Part shown: positions 22,449 through 27,817 of the stretch, piece by piece
How the letters are laid out: the number at the start of each line of letters is the position of its first letter
Position numbering within the stretch: the first letter of the stretch is position 1
Source: Nocardioides sp. SR21
GTDB taxonomy: Bacteria > Actinomycetota > Actinomycetes > Propionibacteriales > Nocardioidaceae
Assembly (NCBI RefSeq): GCF_022761125.1
Contig: NZ_JAKWJR010000003.1
Location: 248,001-312,000 of the forward strand
DNA length: 64,000 nt
Direction: 5' to 3'
Program-made: the position numbers and the translations under genes
The notes under the pieces: model-generated
Seen by the model: only the letters and a program-made list of their open reading frames with translations
What the model was told of the DNA's origin: nothing
The model's database searches: none

Positions 22449-23903
22449 TCACGCCTCCGGGTGGTACCCGCAGGCGTCCTCGGCCTTCACCGCCGTACCC
22501 GGGTCGTCCTTGGGGCCGCCCTGCTTCGGGCCGAGCGCCTTGGCGACCACCGACTGCATCCAGGTGAAGTCCGGGTCGCCGGAGTAGAACTTGTCGGAGC
22601 TGACGAAGGCGATCGACTTCATCTTCTTCTCCTTCACCTTCAGCGCGAGGTCGACGAAGGCGGGCATCAGCTTGCGCGGGATGTCGGTGCGGAGGATCTC
22701 CTCGCCCGCCTTCGCGAGGTCCTCGTAGCGGCGCAGCACGTTCAGCGGGTCGGCCTCGTCGACGATCGCGTTGACCATGCAGCGCTGCCGCAGCATCCGC
22801 TCGTAGTCGTCGGAGCCCCAGCGCCCGCGGGAGTACCAGAGCGCGTGGAAGCCGTCGAGGTGCTGGTCGGGGCCGGGCTCGAGGTAGCCGGTCGGCGGGA
22901 TGTTGAGGTCGGTGTTGCCGTTGATCGCGACCGGCTCGTTGATGTTGACCGTGACCCCGCCGATCGCGTCGACGAGCTGCTGGAAGCCCATCAGGTTGAT
23001 CAGCAGGTAGTAGTCGACGTTCGTCCCGAGGCTGCCGGCAACCGCCTGCTTGATCGCATCGGCGCCCTCGTTCTCGGACTTGCCGAGGATGCTCGGGTAC
23101 AGCTCCGGCACGGTCTTGTAGACGGCGTTCAGCATCCAGGTGCCCGGGTCGCCCTCGCCGCTGAAGCCGTAGGGGAAGACGTCGTGCAGCGGGCTGTCCT
23201 CGGGGAACTGCGCGTTCATCATGTTGCGCGGCAGGCTGAACATCACCGACTTGCCGGTCTGGGTGTCCATGCTGAGCAGGATCATGCTGTCGGTGCGGAT
23301 GCCGCTGCGCCCGACTCCCCCGTCACCACCGAGCAGGAGCACGTTCACCCGGTCGCGCCCGGCCCAGGGATCCTCCTCGGTGACTCCGTCCGGGGTGGTC
23401 TGGGTCTGCTCGTCGTCGAAGACGGTGGCGACGAAGTCGGCCTGAGTGGTCGAGATCCGCACGCTCTTCACGGCCGGGACGGCGACGAGGATGCAGAGCA
23501 GCGTCACCACGAGCACGCCGAGGGACTTCTCGAGCCGGTTCATGCCGGGCGGCCGGGCCATGGCGTACGTCGTGACGACCGTGAACGCCCAGACGACGTA
23601 GGCGACGCCGAGGACGACCGCGGTCACGCGCAGCCACGCCGGGTCGAACGCGAGCTGGGCGGCGTGGTGCACGTCGGTGAAGTAGTACGCCGCGAGCCCG
23701 ACCGAGGCGACGAACGGCAGCAGCACCAGCCAGCCGAGCCGGCGCCGGGTCCAGAGGTAGCCCGCTCCGGGCAGGACCGCGCCGAGCACGGTCACCCAGA
23801 GGGCGCCGGCCAGGGTCTTCGCGCGACGGAACGCGCGCGGAGGCTTGATCGCGCGGTGCTTCGGGCGCGCCGAAGGCGCGTCTGTCCGCACCGATGTCGA
23901 CAT
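22449..23903 (-). CDS. LytR-CpsA-Psr family cell-wall ligase
   Basis: 484 aa. Basic N-terminus, then about four membrane segments (35-52, 57-75, 93-113, 125-147), more than the single anchor of most LCP proteins. The extracellular LCP domain (about 185-440) has VNVLLLGGDGG, the arginine/aspartate motif GIRTDSMILLS, FSLPRNM and the late YSRGRWGSDDYERMLRQR. It attaches undecaprenyl-linked polymers to peptidoglycan. The ATG is preceded by GGGGAGGG, a leadered start. Confidence 0.92.
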   Translation of the reverse strand: MSTSVRTDAPSARPKHRAIKPPRAFRRAKTLAGALWVTVLGAVLPGAGYLWTRRRLGWLVLLPFVASVGLAAYYFTDVHHAAQLAFDPAWLRVTAVVLGVAYVVWAFTVVTTYAMARPPGMNRLEKSLGVLVVTLLCILVAVPAVKSVRISTTQADFVATVFDDEQTQTTPDGVTEEDPWAGRDRVNVLLLGGDGGVGRSGIRTDSMILLSMDTQTGKSVMFSLPRNMMNAQFPEDSPLHDVFPYGFSGEGDPGTWMLNAVYKTVPELYPSILGKSENEGADAIKQAVAGSLGTNVDYYLLINLMGFQQLVDAIGGVTVNINEPVAINGNTDLNIPPTGYLEPGPDQHLDGFHALWYSRGRWGSDDYERMLRQRCMVNAIVDEADPLNVLRRYEDLAKAGEEILRTDIPRKLMPAFVDLALKVKEKKMKSIAFVSSDKFYSGDPDFTWMQSVVAKALGPKQGGPKDDPGTAVKAEDACGYHPEA

Positions 23904-23946: not shown

Positions 23947-25536
23947 TCAGGCGGGAACGGTGACTTCCGGCGCGTACGCCGTCCCGCGTGCCGCGCGGGT
24001 CCAGAGGGTCCCGTCGCCGGCGGTCGGGCCCTCCGCCGCCAGCTCCCGCTTGAGCACCTTGTTGGTCGCGGTGCTGGGCAGGTCCGGTGCGAGCCGGACG
24101 AAGCGCGGCCACGCCTTGGCCGACAGGTCGGGCTGGGCGGCGAGGAACTCCTCGAGCTCGGCCGGGGTCAGCGTGGCGTCGTCCTGGAGCACGATCGCGG
24201 CCATCACCTGGTCGCCGACGTTCTCGTCCGGCACGGCGTAGACCGCGACCCGGTTGACGGCGGGCAGCCGCTGGAGGACCCGCTCGATCGGCGCGGCGGC
24301 GAGGTTCTCGCCGTCCACCCGCATCCAGTCGGCGGTCCGGCCCGCGAGGTAGATCCAGCCGTCGGCGTCGCGGTAGGCGAGGTCGCCCGACCAGTACATG
24401 CCGTGGCGCATCCGCTCGTCGTTCGCGTCCTGGTCGTTGTAGTAGCCGTTGAAGTACCCGGCGCCCTGGGTGTTGACCAGCTCCCCCACCGCCTGGTCGG
24501 CGTTCGCGAGCGCGCCGTTCTCGTCGAACTCCGCGACCGCGCACTCGGTGACGGTCTCGGAGTCGTAGATCGCGACGCCGTCGAAGCCCTTGCCGATCGA
24601 GCCCTTCGGCGTGCCCGGCTCGCGGGTGATGATCACCGCGAGCTCGGTCGAGCCGAAGCCGTCCCACACGTCGCAGGCGAAGCGCCGGCTGAACTCGTCG
24701 ATGTCGCGGTCGCTCGCCTCGTTGCCGAAGGCGACGCGGAGCGTGTTGTCGGCGTCGTCGGGCTGCTCGGGCGTTGCCAGCACGTAGGCCAGCGGCTTGC
24801 CGACGTAGTTCATGTACGTGACGCCGTACCTCCGCACGTCGGCGAGGAAGCCGGACGCGCTGAACTTCGCCGGCACGATCGTCGAGCCGCCGCAGACCGC
24901 CGGGCTCCAGCCGGCGACCACGGCGTTCGAGTGGAACAGCGGCATCGCGACGTAGCAGACGTCGTCGGCGCCGAGCCCGAACCGCCCCTGGAGGTTGAGG
25001 CCCGAGAACAGCACCATCAGGTGGTTCACCTGGACCGCCTTCGGGTCCCCGCTCGTGCCCGAGGTGAAGATCATCATGAAGGTGTCCATCGCCTCGACCT
25101 CGCGGTACGGCGTCAGCTCGCCCGCACCGGCCACCAGGTCGGCCCACTCCTCGGTCGAGGTGTCGAGGATCCGCACGCCGTCCAGGTCGAGGCCGTCGAG
25201 CAGCGGCCGGTGCTCGGCGTCGGTCACCAGGAGCTGGCACTCCGCCCGCCGGATGTCCTTGAGCAGCCCCTCGCCGCGTCGGGTGTTGTTGATCCCGCAC
25301 AGGGTGTAGCCACCGAGGGCCGCCGCGGCCATGGCGCGCAGCATGTCCGGCGTGTTCCCGAGCAGGGTGCCGACGTGCATCGGCCGGTCGGCCTCGGCCA
25401 GGCCGATCAGCGCCGCCGCGACCGCCGAGGACTCGGCGACGTGCTCGCGCCAGGTCCAGCTGCGATCGCCGTACCGGACTCCGGTGTTGTCGTCCTCCGC
25501 GCGCTCGCGCAGCAGCTGCTGGACGGTCTCGGCCAC
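23947..25536 (-). CDS. AMP-dependent acyl-CoA synthetase (FadD17-like)
   Basis: 529 aa. ANL-superfamily enzyme that activates a carboxylic acid as an acyl-AMP and then acyl-CoA. P-loop motif TSGTSGDPK (158-166), DGFGSTELA (A5 region), YWSGDLAYRDADGWIYLAGR (A7/A8) and the C-terminal catalytic lysine in NKVLKREL. Sequence style and the KstR-like operator upstream suggest the FadD17 group used in steroid side-chain breakdown in mycobacteria; that assignment is inference. GTG start with a GGAGGG ribosome site. Divergent from the molybdopterin oxidase. Confidence 0.85.
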   Translation of the reverse strand: MAETVQQLLRERAEDDNTGVRYGDRSWTWREHVAESSAVAAALIGLAEADRPMHVGTLLGNTPDMLRAMAAAALGGYTLCGINNTRRGEGLLKDIRRAECQLLVTDAEHRPLLDGLDLDGVRILDTSTEEWADLVAGAGELTPYREVEAMDTFMMIFTSGTSGDPKAVQVNHLMVLFSGLNLQGRFGLGADDVCYVAMPLFHSNAVVAGWSPAVCGGSTIVPAKFSASGFLADVRRYGVTYMNYVGKPLAYVLATPEQPDDADNTLRVAFGNEASDRDIDEFSRRFACDVWDGFGSTELAVIITREPGTPKGSIGKGFDGVAIYDSETVTECAVAEFDENGALANADQAVGELVNTQGAGYFNGYYNDQDANDERMRHGMYWSGDLAYRDADGWIYLAGRTADWMRVDGENLAAAPIERVLQRLPAVNRVAVYAVPDENVGDQVMAAIVLQDDATLTPAELEEFLAAQPDLSAKAWPRFVRLAPDLPSTATNKVLKRELAAEGPTAGDGTLWTRAARGTAYAPEVTVPA

Positions 25537-25552
25537 GTCACCCTCCCTCGTA

Positions 25553-25568
25553 GTTGACGCGTGTCAAC
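25553..25568. promoter_or_regulatory. Palindrome GTTGAC-gcgt-GTCAAC
   Basis: Perfect 6-bp inverted repeat with a 4-bp centre, 17 nt upstream of the acyl-CoA synthetase start and around the predicted transcription start. It is operator-like, but no regulator is assigned. Confidence 0.6.
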
Positions 25569-25580
25569 CTACGACATTTC

Positions 25581-25594
25581 TAGAACGTGTTCCA
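25581..25594. promoter_or_regulatory. KstR-type operator TAGAACGTGTTCCA
   Basis: Exact match to the 14-bp KstR consensus TnnAACnnGTTnnA known from mycobacteria. It overlaps the expected -35 of the plus-strand gene (its CATACT -10 is at 25609-25614) and sits upstream of the minus-strand TAGGTT (25571-25566), so one bound repressor could silence both directions. KstR is a TetR-family repressor of steroid catabolism released by steroid-CoA thioesters. Confidence 0.7.
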
Positions 25595-25620
25595 GTAGGA
25601 CGCTCGGTCATACTGGTCGC

Positions 25621-26232
25621 GTGCCAGTGACTCGCGGCTTCCTGGGCCGGCGCCGAACCGCCCGCCCCGACCGGCTGCCGCCCGGTCAGTACGACGCCGG
25701 CAGCGCGTGGCCGACGCTCACCGCGGAGGCGACGCCCCGCCTGGACCTCGACGCGTGGCGGATGACCGTCGACGGCGCGGTCGAGAGCCGGCAGGAGTGG
25801 ACGTGGTCCGACGTCCAGGCCATGCCGGGCTCGTCGTACGTCGGCGACATCCACTGCGTGACCACGTGGTCGAAGTTCGACATGACGTTCACCGGGGTCA
25901 GCGTGGACACGCTGCTCGAGGCCGCCCGGCCGACCGCGGCGGCGCGGTTCGTGATGGCGCACTCGACCACCGGCTACACGACGAACCTCCCGCTCGAGGA
26001 CGTCACCGGCGGCAAGGCGTGGGTCGTCTGGTCGGTCGACGGCAAGCCGCTCCCGACCGGGCACGGTGGCCCGGTCCGGCTGCTGGTGCCCCACCTCTAC
26101 TTCTGGAAGTCGGCCAAGTGGATCACCCGGCTCGAGCTGATGGCGCGGGACCGGCCGGGCTTCTGGGAGCAGAACGGCTACCACGACCGCGGCGACCCCT
26201 GGCTCGAGCAGCGCTATCAGGGAGATCCGTAA
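25621..26232 (+). CDS. Molybdopterin-dependent oxidoreductase (sulfite-oxidase fold)
   Basis: 203 aa, a minimal Oxidored_molyb domain. C79 in YVGDIHCVTTWSKFD is the expected molybdenum ligand, followed by HSTTGYTTNLPLED and LVPHLYFWKSAKWITRLELM, all typical of the YedY/sulfite-oxidase family. No Tat signal or haem domain is present, so it is a cytoplasmic-looking variant. The GTG start is set by CATACT ending 6 nt upstream. The next gene, a flavin reductase, begins immediately after the TAA, so the two likely form an electron-transfer pair. Confidence 0.88.
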   Translation: MPVTRGFLGRRRTARPDRLPPGQYDAGSAWPTLTAEATPRLDLDAWRMTVDGAVESRQEWTWSDVQAMPGSSYVGDIHCVTTWSKFDMTFTGVSVDTLLEAARPTAAARFVMAHSTTGYTTNLPLEDVTGGKAWVVWSVDGKPLPTGHGGPVRLLVPHLYFWKSAKWITRLELMARDRPGFWEQNGYHDRGDPWLEQRYQGDP

Positions 26233-26943
26233 GTGGCGGCGCCCGCCGGTGACTGGACGACCGGCACGATCATCGAGCTCGACCACCCCACCGACCGCCT
26301 GGTCCGCCTGCGTCTTCACGTCGACGACCGTGTCGACCACCTTCCGGGCCAGCACTACGTGGTCCGGCTGCGTGCGCCCGACGGCTACACCGCCCAGCGG
26401 TCGTACTCCATCGCCTCCGACCCCGACGACCCGCTGCTCGAGCTGATGGTCGAGTGCCTGCCCGGCGGCGAGGTCTCGGGATTCCTGCACGACGTCGCCG
26501 AGGTCGGTGACGTGCTGGAGCTGCGTGGCCCGATCGGCGGCTGGTTCGTGTGGGAGGGCGACCTGCCCGCGGTGGCCGTCGCCGGTGGCTCCGGCGTCGT
26601 CCCGCTGGTGGCGATGGCTCGCTACGCCCGGCGGCTCGGCCTGCAGGACAAGCTGCGCATCGTCGTGGTGGCGCGGACGTGGGACGACCTCCCCTACGCC
26701 GCCGAGCTGCAGCGGTACGGCGCGTTCATCGCGCTCACCCGCGAGAACGTCGCCCTCGAGAACGGGCAGAGCCGGGTCGCGGCGCCGCCGTACCCCGACG
26801 AGATGAAGGCGTACGTCGCCGGCGCGGAGCGCGCCTACGTGTGCGGTTCGGTCGGCTTCGCGTCGTTCGCGACGCGGCTGCTCGAGGACGCCGGCGTCGA
26901 CACGGACGCCATCAGGGTGGAGCAGTTCGGCGAGACGGGCTGA
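26233..26943 (+). CDS. FAD/NAD(P)-binding ferredoxin-reductase-type protein
   Basis: 236 aa. FAD-binding beta-barrel with R56-S-Y-S (AQRSYSIASDP), then a nucleotide-binding domain with VAVAGGSGVVPLVAM and the C-terminal AYVCGSVGFASFATRLLE. No [2Fe-2S] domain. It is likely to pass electrons from NAD(P)H to the molybdopterin enzyme encoded directly before it. The GTG start abuts the previous TAA with no spacer; no internal ribosome site is obvious, which suggests translational coupling. Confidence 0.88.
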   Translation: MAAPAGDWTTGTIIELDHPTDRLVRLRLHVDDRVDHLPGQHYVVRLRAPDGYTAQRSYSIASDPDDPLLELMVECLPGGEVSGFLHDVAEVGDVLELRGPIGGWFVWEGDLPAVAVAGGSGVVPLVAMARYARRLGLQDKLRIVVVARTWDDLPYAAELQRYGAFIALTRENVALENGQSRVAAPPYPDEMKAYVAGAERAYVCGSVGFASFATRLLEDAGVDTDAIRVEQFGETG

Positions 26944-26963: not shown

Positions 26964-27227
26964 ATGCTCATCCTGGGAATCATCCTGTTCGGCATGGTCA
27001 TCGGTGCCGGCGCTCAGCTCATCCTCGGCAAGGGCGGCCAGGGCATCGACTGGACGCTCGCGATCGTGGCGGGCCTGGTCGGGTCGTTCGTCGGCGGTCT
27101 GCTCATCAGCCTGCTGAGCGGCGACGGCCTGGACCTCCGCGCGAGCGGGATCATCGGCTCCCTCGTCGGCGCCATCGTCGTCACGCTCGGCTGGCGCTGG
27201 TACGCCGGCCGCTCGAAGGCAGTGTGA
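26964..27227 (+). CDS. GlsB/YeaQ/YmgE-family membrane protein
   Basis: 87 aa with three hydrophobic segments and glycine-rich turns (IILFGMVIGAGAQLILGKGG, GLVGSFVGGLLI, GIIGSLVGAIVVTLGWRW). This is the transglycosylase-associated/GlsB-like fold; the role is in envelope stress, poorly defined. ATG start with TAGGAT (26952-26957) 6 nt upstream. Its stop overlaps the next start as GTGA. Confidence 0.85.
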   Translation: MLILGIILFGMVIGAGAQLILGKGGQGIDWTLAIVAGLVGSFVGGLLISLLSGDGLDLRASGIIGSLVGAIVVTLGWRWYAGRSKAV

Positions 27228-27817
27228 GCTCGGACTACGGTCACTTCGACGTCGGGTTCGTCACCGGGGCGACCCCGGACAAGTGGGCGCGCATCTGGCG
27301 TGAGCGCTTCGCGCGCGACCCGCTCGAGCTGGTCCCCCTCACCGAGGCGGAGCAGGAGGACGGCATCCGCGACGGCCGCCTGGACATGGCGCTGGTGCGA
27401 CTCCCGATCGACCGGGACGGACTGCACTGCATCCCGCTGTACGACGAGCTCCCCGTCGCGGTGATGGGCGTCGAGCACCTGCTCACGCTCACGGAGGAGG
27501 TCACGCTCGCGGACCTCGCGGACGAGCAGCTCGTGCTCCCGCACCGGTCGGGCTGGACCCCGGAGGCCGAGCAGCTCGCGTGGCCGGAGATGTCGGTCCC
27601 GGACGCGGTCGAGGTGGTCGCCTCCGGCACCGGGGTCGTGATCGTGCCCATGTCCGTCGCCCGGCTCCACCACCGCAAGGACGTGACCCACCGCGTCGTC
27701 ACCGACCTCGAGCCGACGAAGATCGGCCTGGCCTGGCGCATCGACAACGAGGATCCCTGGGTGCAGCGGTTCATCGGGATCGTGCGCGGCCGCTCGGAGC
27801 GCAGCTCGCGCGGGTGA
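27224..27817 (+). CDS. Orphan LysR-type substrate-binding domain, no HTH
   Basis: 197 aa. The whole protein matches only the effector-binding half of LysR regulators: FDVGFVTGATPDKWARIWRE, GRLDMALVRLPIDRDGLHCI, a hinge (PVAVMGVEHLL..ADLADEQLVLP) and VEVVASGTGVVIVPMSVARL. The N-terminal winged helix is missing and the start overlaps the GlsB gene by 4 nt, so truncation within this gene is unlikely to be recent. It may act as a ligand-binding partner or a modulator; no function is established. Confidence 0.8.
   Translation: MSSDYGHFDVGFVTGATPDKWARIWRERFARDPLELVPLTEAEQEDGIRDGRLDMALVRLPIDRDGLHCIPLYDELPVAVMGVEHLLTLTEEVTLADLADEQLVLPHRSGWTPEAEQLAWPEMSVPDAVEVVASGTGVVIVPMSVARLHHRKDVTHRVVTDLEPTKIGLAWRIDNEDPWVQRFIGIVRGRSERSSRG

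Follow-up and report, generated by a model that had tools for sequence, protein, structure and literature searches.

Does a KstR operator that stands between an acyl-CoA synthetase gene and a molybdopterin oxidase gene draw a molybdenum enzyme into steroid catabolism? The site in question lies in a stretch of 64,000 nucleotides from Nocardioides sp. SR21, hereafter the window. A preliminary description had read it as an exact KstR operator that overlaps promoter elements in both directions and that places the synthetase, together with a YedY-like oxidase and its flavin reductase, under steroid control. The locus comprises the following features.

22449..23903, minus strand: LCP-family protein, the conserved flank on the fadD side.
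23947..25536, minus strand: fadD, a FadD1-type acyl-CoA synthetase of 529 aa (NCBIfam NF009927).
25554..25567, no strand: palindrome P, TTGACGCGTGTCAA (consensus TTGACRCGYGTCAA), to which an EthR-like repressor is proposed to bind.
25581..25594, no strand: KstR box, TAGAACGTGTTCCA (pattern match and weight matrix).
25609..25614, plus strand: -10-like CATACT, 6 nt 5' of the oxidase start, a predicted leaderless promoter.
25621..26232, plus strand: small sulfite-oxidase-fold molybdopterin oxidoreductase of 203 aa (PF00174, alignment and model).
26233..26943, plus strand: FAD/NAD(P)H reductase, the oxidase partner (PF00970 above cut-off, PF00175 just under).
26964..27227, plus strand: small transglycosylase-associated-like protein (Pfam score under the cut-off), with conserved synteny in part of the clade.
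27224..27817, plus strand: free-standing LysR substrate-binding domain of 197 aa, syntenic behind oxidase and reductase in the clade.

The box fits the 14-bp KstR palindrome TnnAACnnGTTnnA exactly, as first described, and is the sole exact match within the 64-kb window. The fadD start (25536) is 44 bp away from it and the oxidase start (25621) 26 bp. Across the genome (4.82 Mb, 28 contigs), the search for other matching sites returned 51 exact matches to the pattern, compared with 6 for the reversed pattern. Among the 50 matches listed of these 51, 32 are intergenic and 18 fall in predicted ORFs, the surrounding genes having been called with a rough hexamer-based caller of our own; the site family is enriched and mostly intergenic. 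A 20-base weight matrix was trained on 27 of the 31 other intergenic sites, with the 25581–25594 site and L005, L007, L016 and L023 excluded from training. It gave the left-out box 29.8 bits, compared with 25.0–35.5 bits for the training sites, and the second-best score anywhere in the window was 11.5 bits. The pattern TnnAACnnGTTnnA fixes 8 bases only, and its reversed control still matches 6 times in the genome, which leaves room for a chance match to a loose consensus. Given the score of the left-out site and the KstR box found at the promoter of 12 of the 30 best fadD orthologs (18 lack one), we regard such a coincidence as very improbable. The sequence TAGAACGTGTTCCA is a real match to the KstR operator consensus.

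The genome does contain a KstR homolog (L026:426-1031; G000:C22:53933-54532), the absence of which had been named as refuting the preliminary reading. Its best matches among solved structures are those of M. tuberculosis KstR (7e-60 to 1e-59), and it scores 272.9 bits against NCBIfam NF033703, below the cut-off of 280. A near-exact box, AGGAACACGTTCCA, with one mismatch to the TnnAACnnGTTnnA pattern, stands 114 nt upstream as kstR's own site. The genes adjacent to boxes include several that exceed their own cut-offs, namely a 3-oxosteroid 1-dehydrogenase (KstD), a steroid 3-ketoacyl-CoA thiolase, FadD8 and an Rv3520c-type oxidoreductase. Two more box neighbours, a keto-pentenoate hydratase and a further KstD-like protein, remain below theirs, and by Pfam there are also acyl-CoA dehydrogenases, a P450 and a protein with a cholesterol-oxidase domain beside boxes. 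A FolC gene likewise stands beside a box, so the box neighbours are not all steroid genes. We found 54 TetR_N matches in the genome, 30 of which were assigned loci and scanned for boxes. Two ORFs carry two TetR_N matches each (G000:C5:19401-20105 and G000:C23:253352-254113), a layout resembling, as far as the available part of the source goes, that reported for Mce3R.

These properties are those of the KstR regulons of mycobacteria (PMC1995591) and N. simplex (PMC7807495, PMC7593942). In the available portions of these papers, we find the same 14-bp palindrome, a kstR gene with its own operator and similar box-adjacent steroid genes, and fadD genes and divergent pairs are usual there, as here. 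KstR control of some fadD gene is ordinary and not new in kind. The difference at fadD1 is a second conserved palindrome beside the box; fadD1 itself is not among the ten fad genes named in one passage of PMC1995591.

The overlap of the KstR consensus with promoters has been published for mycobacteria (Kendall 2007, PMC1995591, in the portion available). At our locus, a consensus promoter scan of 25480–25680 found no sigma-70-type promoter, and the overlap originally claimed for both directions is therefore one that we infer. On the oxidase side it derives from the CATACT element: because this lies 6 bases ahead of the oxidase GTG, the box falls on the -35 region, at -40 to -27 of the predicted promoter. 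On the fadD side, the location of the promoter is a guess. N-terminal conservation favours the oxidase start at 25621 over the first GTG of the ORF, at 25561. CATACT precedes the oxidase GTG in five of eight close relatives, the window included, and four of these five retain a further gene, which we call X, at this locus. Since the element is also found where X is still in place, the oxidase seems to have a leaderless promoter of its own.

The case for fadD as a KstR target is the stronger side of the divergent pair. The protein scores 997.2 bits against the FadD1 model NF009927 (cut-off 800) and 547.9 bits against the steroid-22-oyl-CoA synthetase model NF052587 (cut-off 900); it is related to FadD17 but stays under the FadD17 cut-off. 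We surveyed 147 Nocardioides genomes, counting fadD at E values up to 1e-150 and KstR at up to 1e-40. KstR was found in 95 genomes and fadD in 55, and all 55 of the latter have KstR (raw counts, uncorrected for relatedness). With this co-occurrence and the boxed orthologs, KstR control of fadD, as proposed in the preliminary description, is plausible.

To follow the history of the locus, we compared 32 Nocardioides oxidase loci (the best 30 plus L140 and L150). Only two of them, those of the window genome and of G008 (L081), have the box immediately ahead of the oxidase, and in both X is missing from the interval in between. X lies between box and oxidase in five of the 32 loci (L083–L086 and the MAG locus L140), and the remaining loci have no fadD or box above 14 bits nearby. 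Within the best 30, fadD and a box are found near the oxidase only in L080 (the window), L081, L083, L084, L085 and L086. The X-bearing relatives share the order LCP, fadD, box, X, oxidase, reductase. The window genome encodes X (~407 aa) elsewhere than at the fadD locus (L012:1026-2255; G000:C2), with its own KstR box 11 nt upstream. It occurs in 65 of the 147 genomes of the genus, and 65 of these 65 have KstR. Co-occurrence and gene order thus identify fadD and X, and not the oxidase, as the KstR-linked pair.

X, for which Rv3531c is at most a tentative counterpart, matched neither Pfam nor NCBIfam families at 1e-5, and its sole PDB match has an E value of 0.92; a single-sequence structure model reached a low pLDDT of 41. 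Among steroid-catabolism proteins yet to be characterised, we consider X a good candidate. In G108 (L116), X adjoins fadD, with no oxidase in the 4.6-kb stretch. In G040, a fragment matching 37 residues of the X end precedes the oxidase, and the 7-kb stretch contains no fadD match. Because of this remnant, we rejected the view that the G040 locus is unaltered and had always been without fadD and X; both fadD and the greater part of X have probably disappeared from it. In the window, the oxidase probably stands beside the box only through loss of the intervening X. Trees of the window genome and G008 give weak support on whether X was lost once or twice.

The oxidase belongs to the sulfite-oxidase fold by its PF00174 domain, its fold and its conserved cysteine. 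All 45 sequences in the alignment, drawn from the window and 44 of 80 wider loci, have Cys79, and the structure model (pLDDT 88.8) has the YedY-type structure 1xdq as its best PDB fold match. It shares the fold of the YedY catalytic domain (1xdq, TM 0.71 by query length), and the aligned YedY-type cysteine, which we take to be the ligand cysteine, falls in a weak segment of the oxidase match. It differs from YedY/MsrP in length (203 aa versus 298 for the 1xdq sequence) and in its FAD/NAD(P)H reductase partner, and its score against the MsrP/YedY model NF003767 is 65.6 bits (cut-off 207). Pfam finds no ferredoxin domain in the reductase. A reductase match follows the oxidase in 74 of the 80 loci, which are mostly from other actinobacteria, and oxidase homologs also occur in Streptomyces, Geodermatophilus, Pseudonocardia and others. 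Further downstream, the LysR substrate-binding-domain gene gave no HTH match. We propose that the oxidase–reductase pair is a general actinobacterial redox module and no dedicated steroid enzyme.

The distribution of KstR agrees with this. Counted at an identity of at least 68%, the oxidase is present in 50 of the 147 genomes; KstR is found in 27 of these 50 and in 68 of the 97 others (odds ratio 0.50, p = 0.07, uncorrected for relatedness), so that 23 of the 50 oxidase genomes are without it. Adding eight more distant oxidase homologs changes the counts to 34 of 58 and 61 of 89 (p = 0.29); in both counts, the ten weakest oxidase matches were scored as oxidase-less. No box above 14 bits lies within 400 bp 5' of the oxidase in any of the 80 wider loci. 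By co-occurrence, the oxidase shows no association with KstR, and on this ground we rejected a steroid link. The idea that the box brings a molybdenum oxidase into steroid catabolism, the least expected element of the preliminary description, is weakly supported.

Two other readings of the oxidase therefore deserve weighing beside ours. Were the oxidase–reductase pair a working member of the KstR regulon, catalysing a molybdenum-dependent reaction in the breakdown of steroids or their side chains, the 26-nt gap between box and oxidase would be in keeping, being in the range of other boxes in the genome. The oxidase also closely follows a KstR-boxed X in G037, G065, G101, G144 and L140, where co-transcription is possible. 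We nevertheless think a catabolic role improbable in view of the KstR counts, of the 80 wider loci without an upstream box, and of the -10-like element that the oxidase also has in the four genomes retaining X. The opposite reading, that the box serves fadD only and that its adjacency to an oxidase outside KstR control is an accident of X loss, is a serious contender, although we would rate it at somewhat below an even chance. Box and P precede fadD in stretches that contain no oxidase (L121, L122, L124 and L126–L128), the oxidase is mostly found without a box, and one-sided control in divergent pairs has been raised for N. simplex (PMC7807495, in part). Against it, the box lies where the -35 region of the oxidase promoter is likely to be, and the two genomes that lack X there have similar gaps between box and oxidase, 26 and 27 nt. 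Because the box covers the predicted -35 region, KstR repression of the oxidase is predicted in this species; such direct repression is possible and, if so, local.

The available portions of the literature on KstR and EthR, including PMC3388012 and PMC5517500, supplements aside, describe neither an oxidase under KstR nor palindrome P. The string 'Molybd' is absent from the available text of PMC7807495 and PMC1995591 and appears in that of PMC7593942 solely as a stain. Molybdenum enzymes of sterol degradation are described as Mo-dependent side-chain hydroxylases (PMC11061730, PMC8449060, in part); these act in an anaerobic, oxygenase-independent pathway, and we set them beside the window oxidase by description only. 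In N. simplex, about one third of the predicted operons responded, with one-sided divergent control as one of three possible reasons, and other repressors may act on KstR operons (available portion of PMC7807495). The same portion mentions predicted KstR sites for 71 operons, among which this fadD or X may already have been listed.

The neighbouring palindrome P and the genes that accompany an EthR-like repressor are the more interesting feature of the locus than the oxidase. P lies 13 bp from the KstR box, on the fadD side, within an inverted repeat at 25553–25568 in which GTTGAC and GTCAAC flank a GCGT centre. The pattern TTGACNNNNGTCAA has four sites in the window's genome, all at most 40 bp from a KstR box, and its reversed control has none; by a simple length estimate, the probability that one random place falls this near to a KstR box is about 0.001. 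One of the four departs from the RCGY form, its centre being ATCC. The sequence TTGACATCCGTCAA, whose centre differs from RCGY, occurs at L010:4961-5014 (G000:C1), 26 bp from a KstR box and before an APH-like kinase gene. Over the 147 genomes, bare TTGACNNNNGTCAA gave 234 matches and its reversed control 116, only a twofold difference, so the bare pattern is unspecific without its centre and context. The palindrome and the GAACNNGTTC core lie at most 30 bp apart in 12 of the 147 genomes (reversed control, 0). Before the best 30 fadD orthologs, TTGACRCGYGTCAA occurs exactly in 16 and with up to two mismatches in 19, six of which belong to the clade where P was first noticed; the reversed control gave 0 of 30. 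All 12 fadD orthologs with a KstR box also carry P, and 11 of the 30 are without P. Several of the orthologs that lack these elements follow closely behind another gene, and their transcription may start at a promoter ahead of that gene.

At loci selected by P, three genes of about 445, 200 and 300 codons repeatedly stand behind it. In the window genome (L045:4233-7912; G000:C27), they encode a flavin monooxygenase (FMO), an EthR-like TetR protein and an alpha/beta hydrolase; an SDR gene diverges from them, and the shared upstream region contains both a KstR box and P. In L299, the second and third genes were confirmed as TetR and hydrolase; the other P-selected loci were assigned by gene size only. 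A fadD match follows the three genes in L299, L300 and L302. The TetR protein (G000:C27:112183-112776) scores 95.6 bits against the EthR_C family PF21313 (cut-off 27) and matches EthR structures in the PDB at 2.8e-24. The EthR-like gene is found in 59 of the 147 genomes, 57 of which have KstR. It co-occurs with fadD in 49 genomes; 10 and 6 carry one of the two alone and 82 neither (uncorrected for relatedness). Within the KstR genomes alone, the corresponding numbers are 49, 8 and 6, and 32.

To test P at loci not selected by it, we took the DNA upstream of the EthR-like gene from 47 of the 59 genomes; the window genome and 11 genomes already selected by P were omitted. An FMO match precedes the EthR-like gene at 45 of the 47 loci. 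Upstream of the FMO start, at 0–200 bp, P is present with at most one mismatch in 44 of these 45, and the 45th has two mismatches. The two EthR-like loci without an FMO have P at best with three mismatches, and with up to two mismatches allowed, the reversed control matched at 0 of the 47 loci. KstR boxes were found at 2 of the first 40 EthR-like loci, besides the window genome's own operon, which indicates that the pairing with KstR is lineage-specific there. In G138 (L364), a genome with no KstR match, an FMO gene, an EthR-like gene (34% identity) and P with one mismatch stand together; the unit thus exists outside KstR genomes too. Beside other P sites we noted an amidohydrolase-family gene followed by a SnoaL-like/limonene-epoxide-hydrolase-like gene (L022:2772-4993; G000:C12), with a KstR box and P one base apart upstream, and gene pairs of similar size in L306, L307 and L310.

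The assignment of P to the EthR-like protein has to be set against what is known of EthR. In M. tuberculosis EthA–EthR, as here, a TetR protein with an EthR_C domain stands beside a flavin monooxygenase. The window genome differs in its same-strand order of FMO, TetR and hydrolase and in its FMO, which is nearest to FMO5-type structures. According to the portion of PMC4482099 available, the EthR motif is larger, multi-copy and not classically palindromic, whereas P is a simple 14-bp palindrome; a palindrome search in that study nevertheless returned a motif for ethR, and the physiological role of EthR is given as unknown. As the motifs differ, we term the regulator here EthR-like and its operator predicted. 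The same mismatch, and the resemblance of TTGAC to a -35 hexamer, would suit a P that is the site of another regulator or a promoter element. We hold this to be unlikely, because P precedes the FMO–EthR-like pair in 44 of 45 cases and is absent at the two EthR-like genes that lack an FMO, and because a 14-base palindrome with a conserved RCGY centre would be unexpected for a -35 element. Literature searches on EthA/EthR with cholesterol and on YuiH in this context found no paper.

Our preferred reading, which we think probable though well short of certain, is that the fadD1 promoter is under dual control by KstR and an EthR-like repressor, that X has gone, and that the oxidase is part of a general redox module. 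What we observed are the sequences and their conservation, the synteny and the co-occurrence of genes; that the repressors bind and repress, which ligands they answer to, where the promoter elements lie and in what order events took place is what we infer. KstR would bind 25581–25594 until released by a steroid metabolite, and the EthR-like TetR repressor, encoded elsewhere in an operon with the FMO and the hydrolase, would bind 25554–25567, so that full expression of fadD1 would require both signals. The box would originally have served fadD and the divergent, KstR-linked X; with X gone from this position, it would have come to lie over the -35 region of the leaderless oxidase promoter and may repress the oxidase. 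fadD1 is probably a target of the EthR-like repressor, with KstR control superimposed in part of the genus.

Together, FMO, hydrolase and ligase suggest a route from ketone through ester and acid to a CoA thioester. A bolder proposal, which we put forward tentatively and consider rather less likely than not to hold in full, is that in Nocardioides the EthR-type repressor and KstR jointly control a module of FMO, hydrolase, FadD1, SDR and amidohydrolase with SnoaL-like protein, in which a steroid-derived ketone would be oxygenated to an ester, hydrolysed and activated with CoA. The locus illustrates how gene removal may bring a redox enzyme next to the predicted site of a steroid repressor. The conserved, predicted second operator by the KstR boxes, and the EthR-like repressor with it, single out a few genes that lend themselves to joint study in a soil genus that is harmless. 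If the proposal is true, EthR-type repressors would naturally serve the catabolism of steroid or lipid ketones, and their ligand would be an intermediate of the route.
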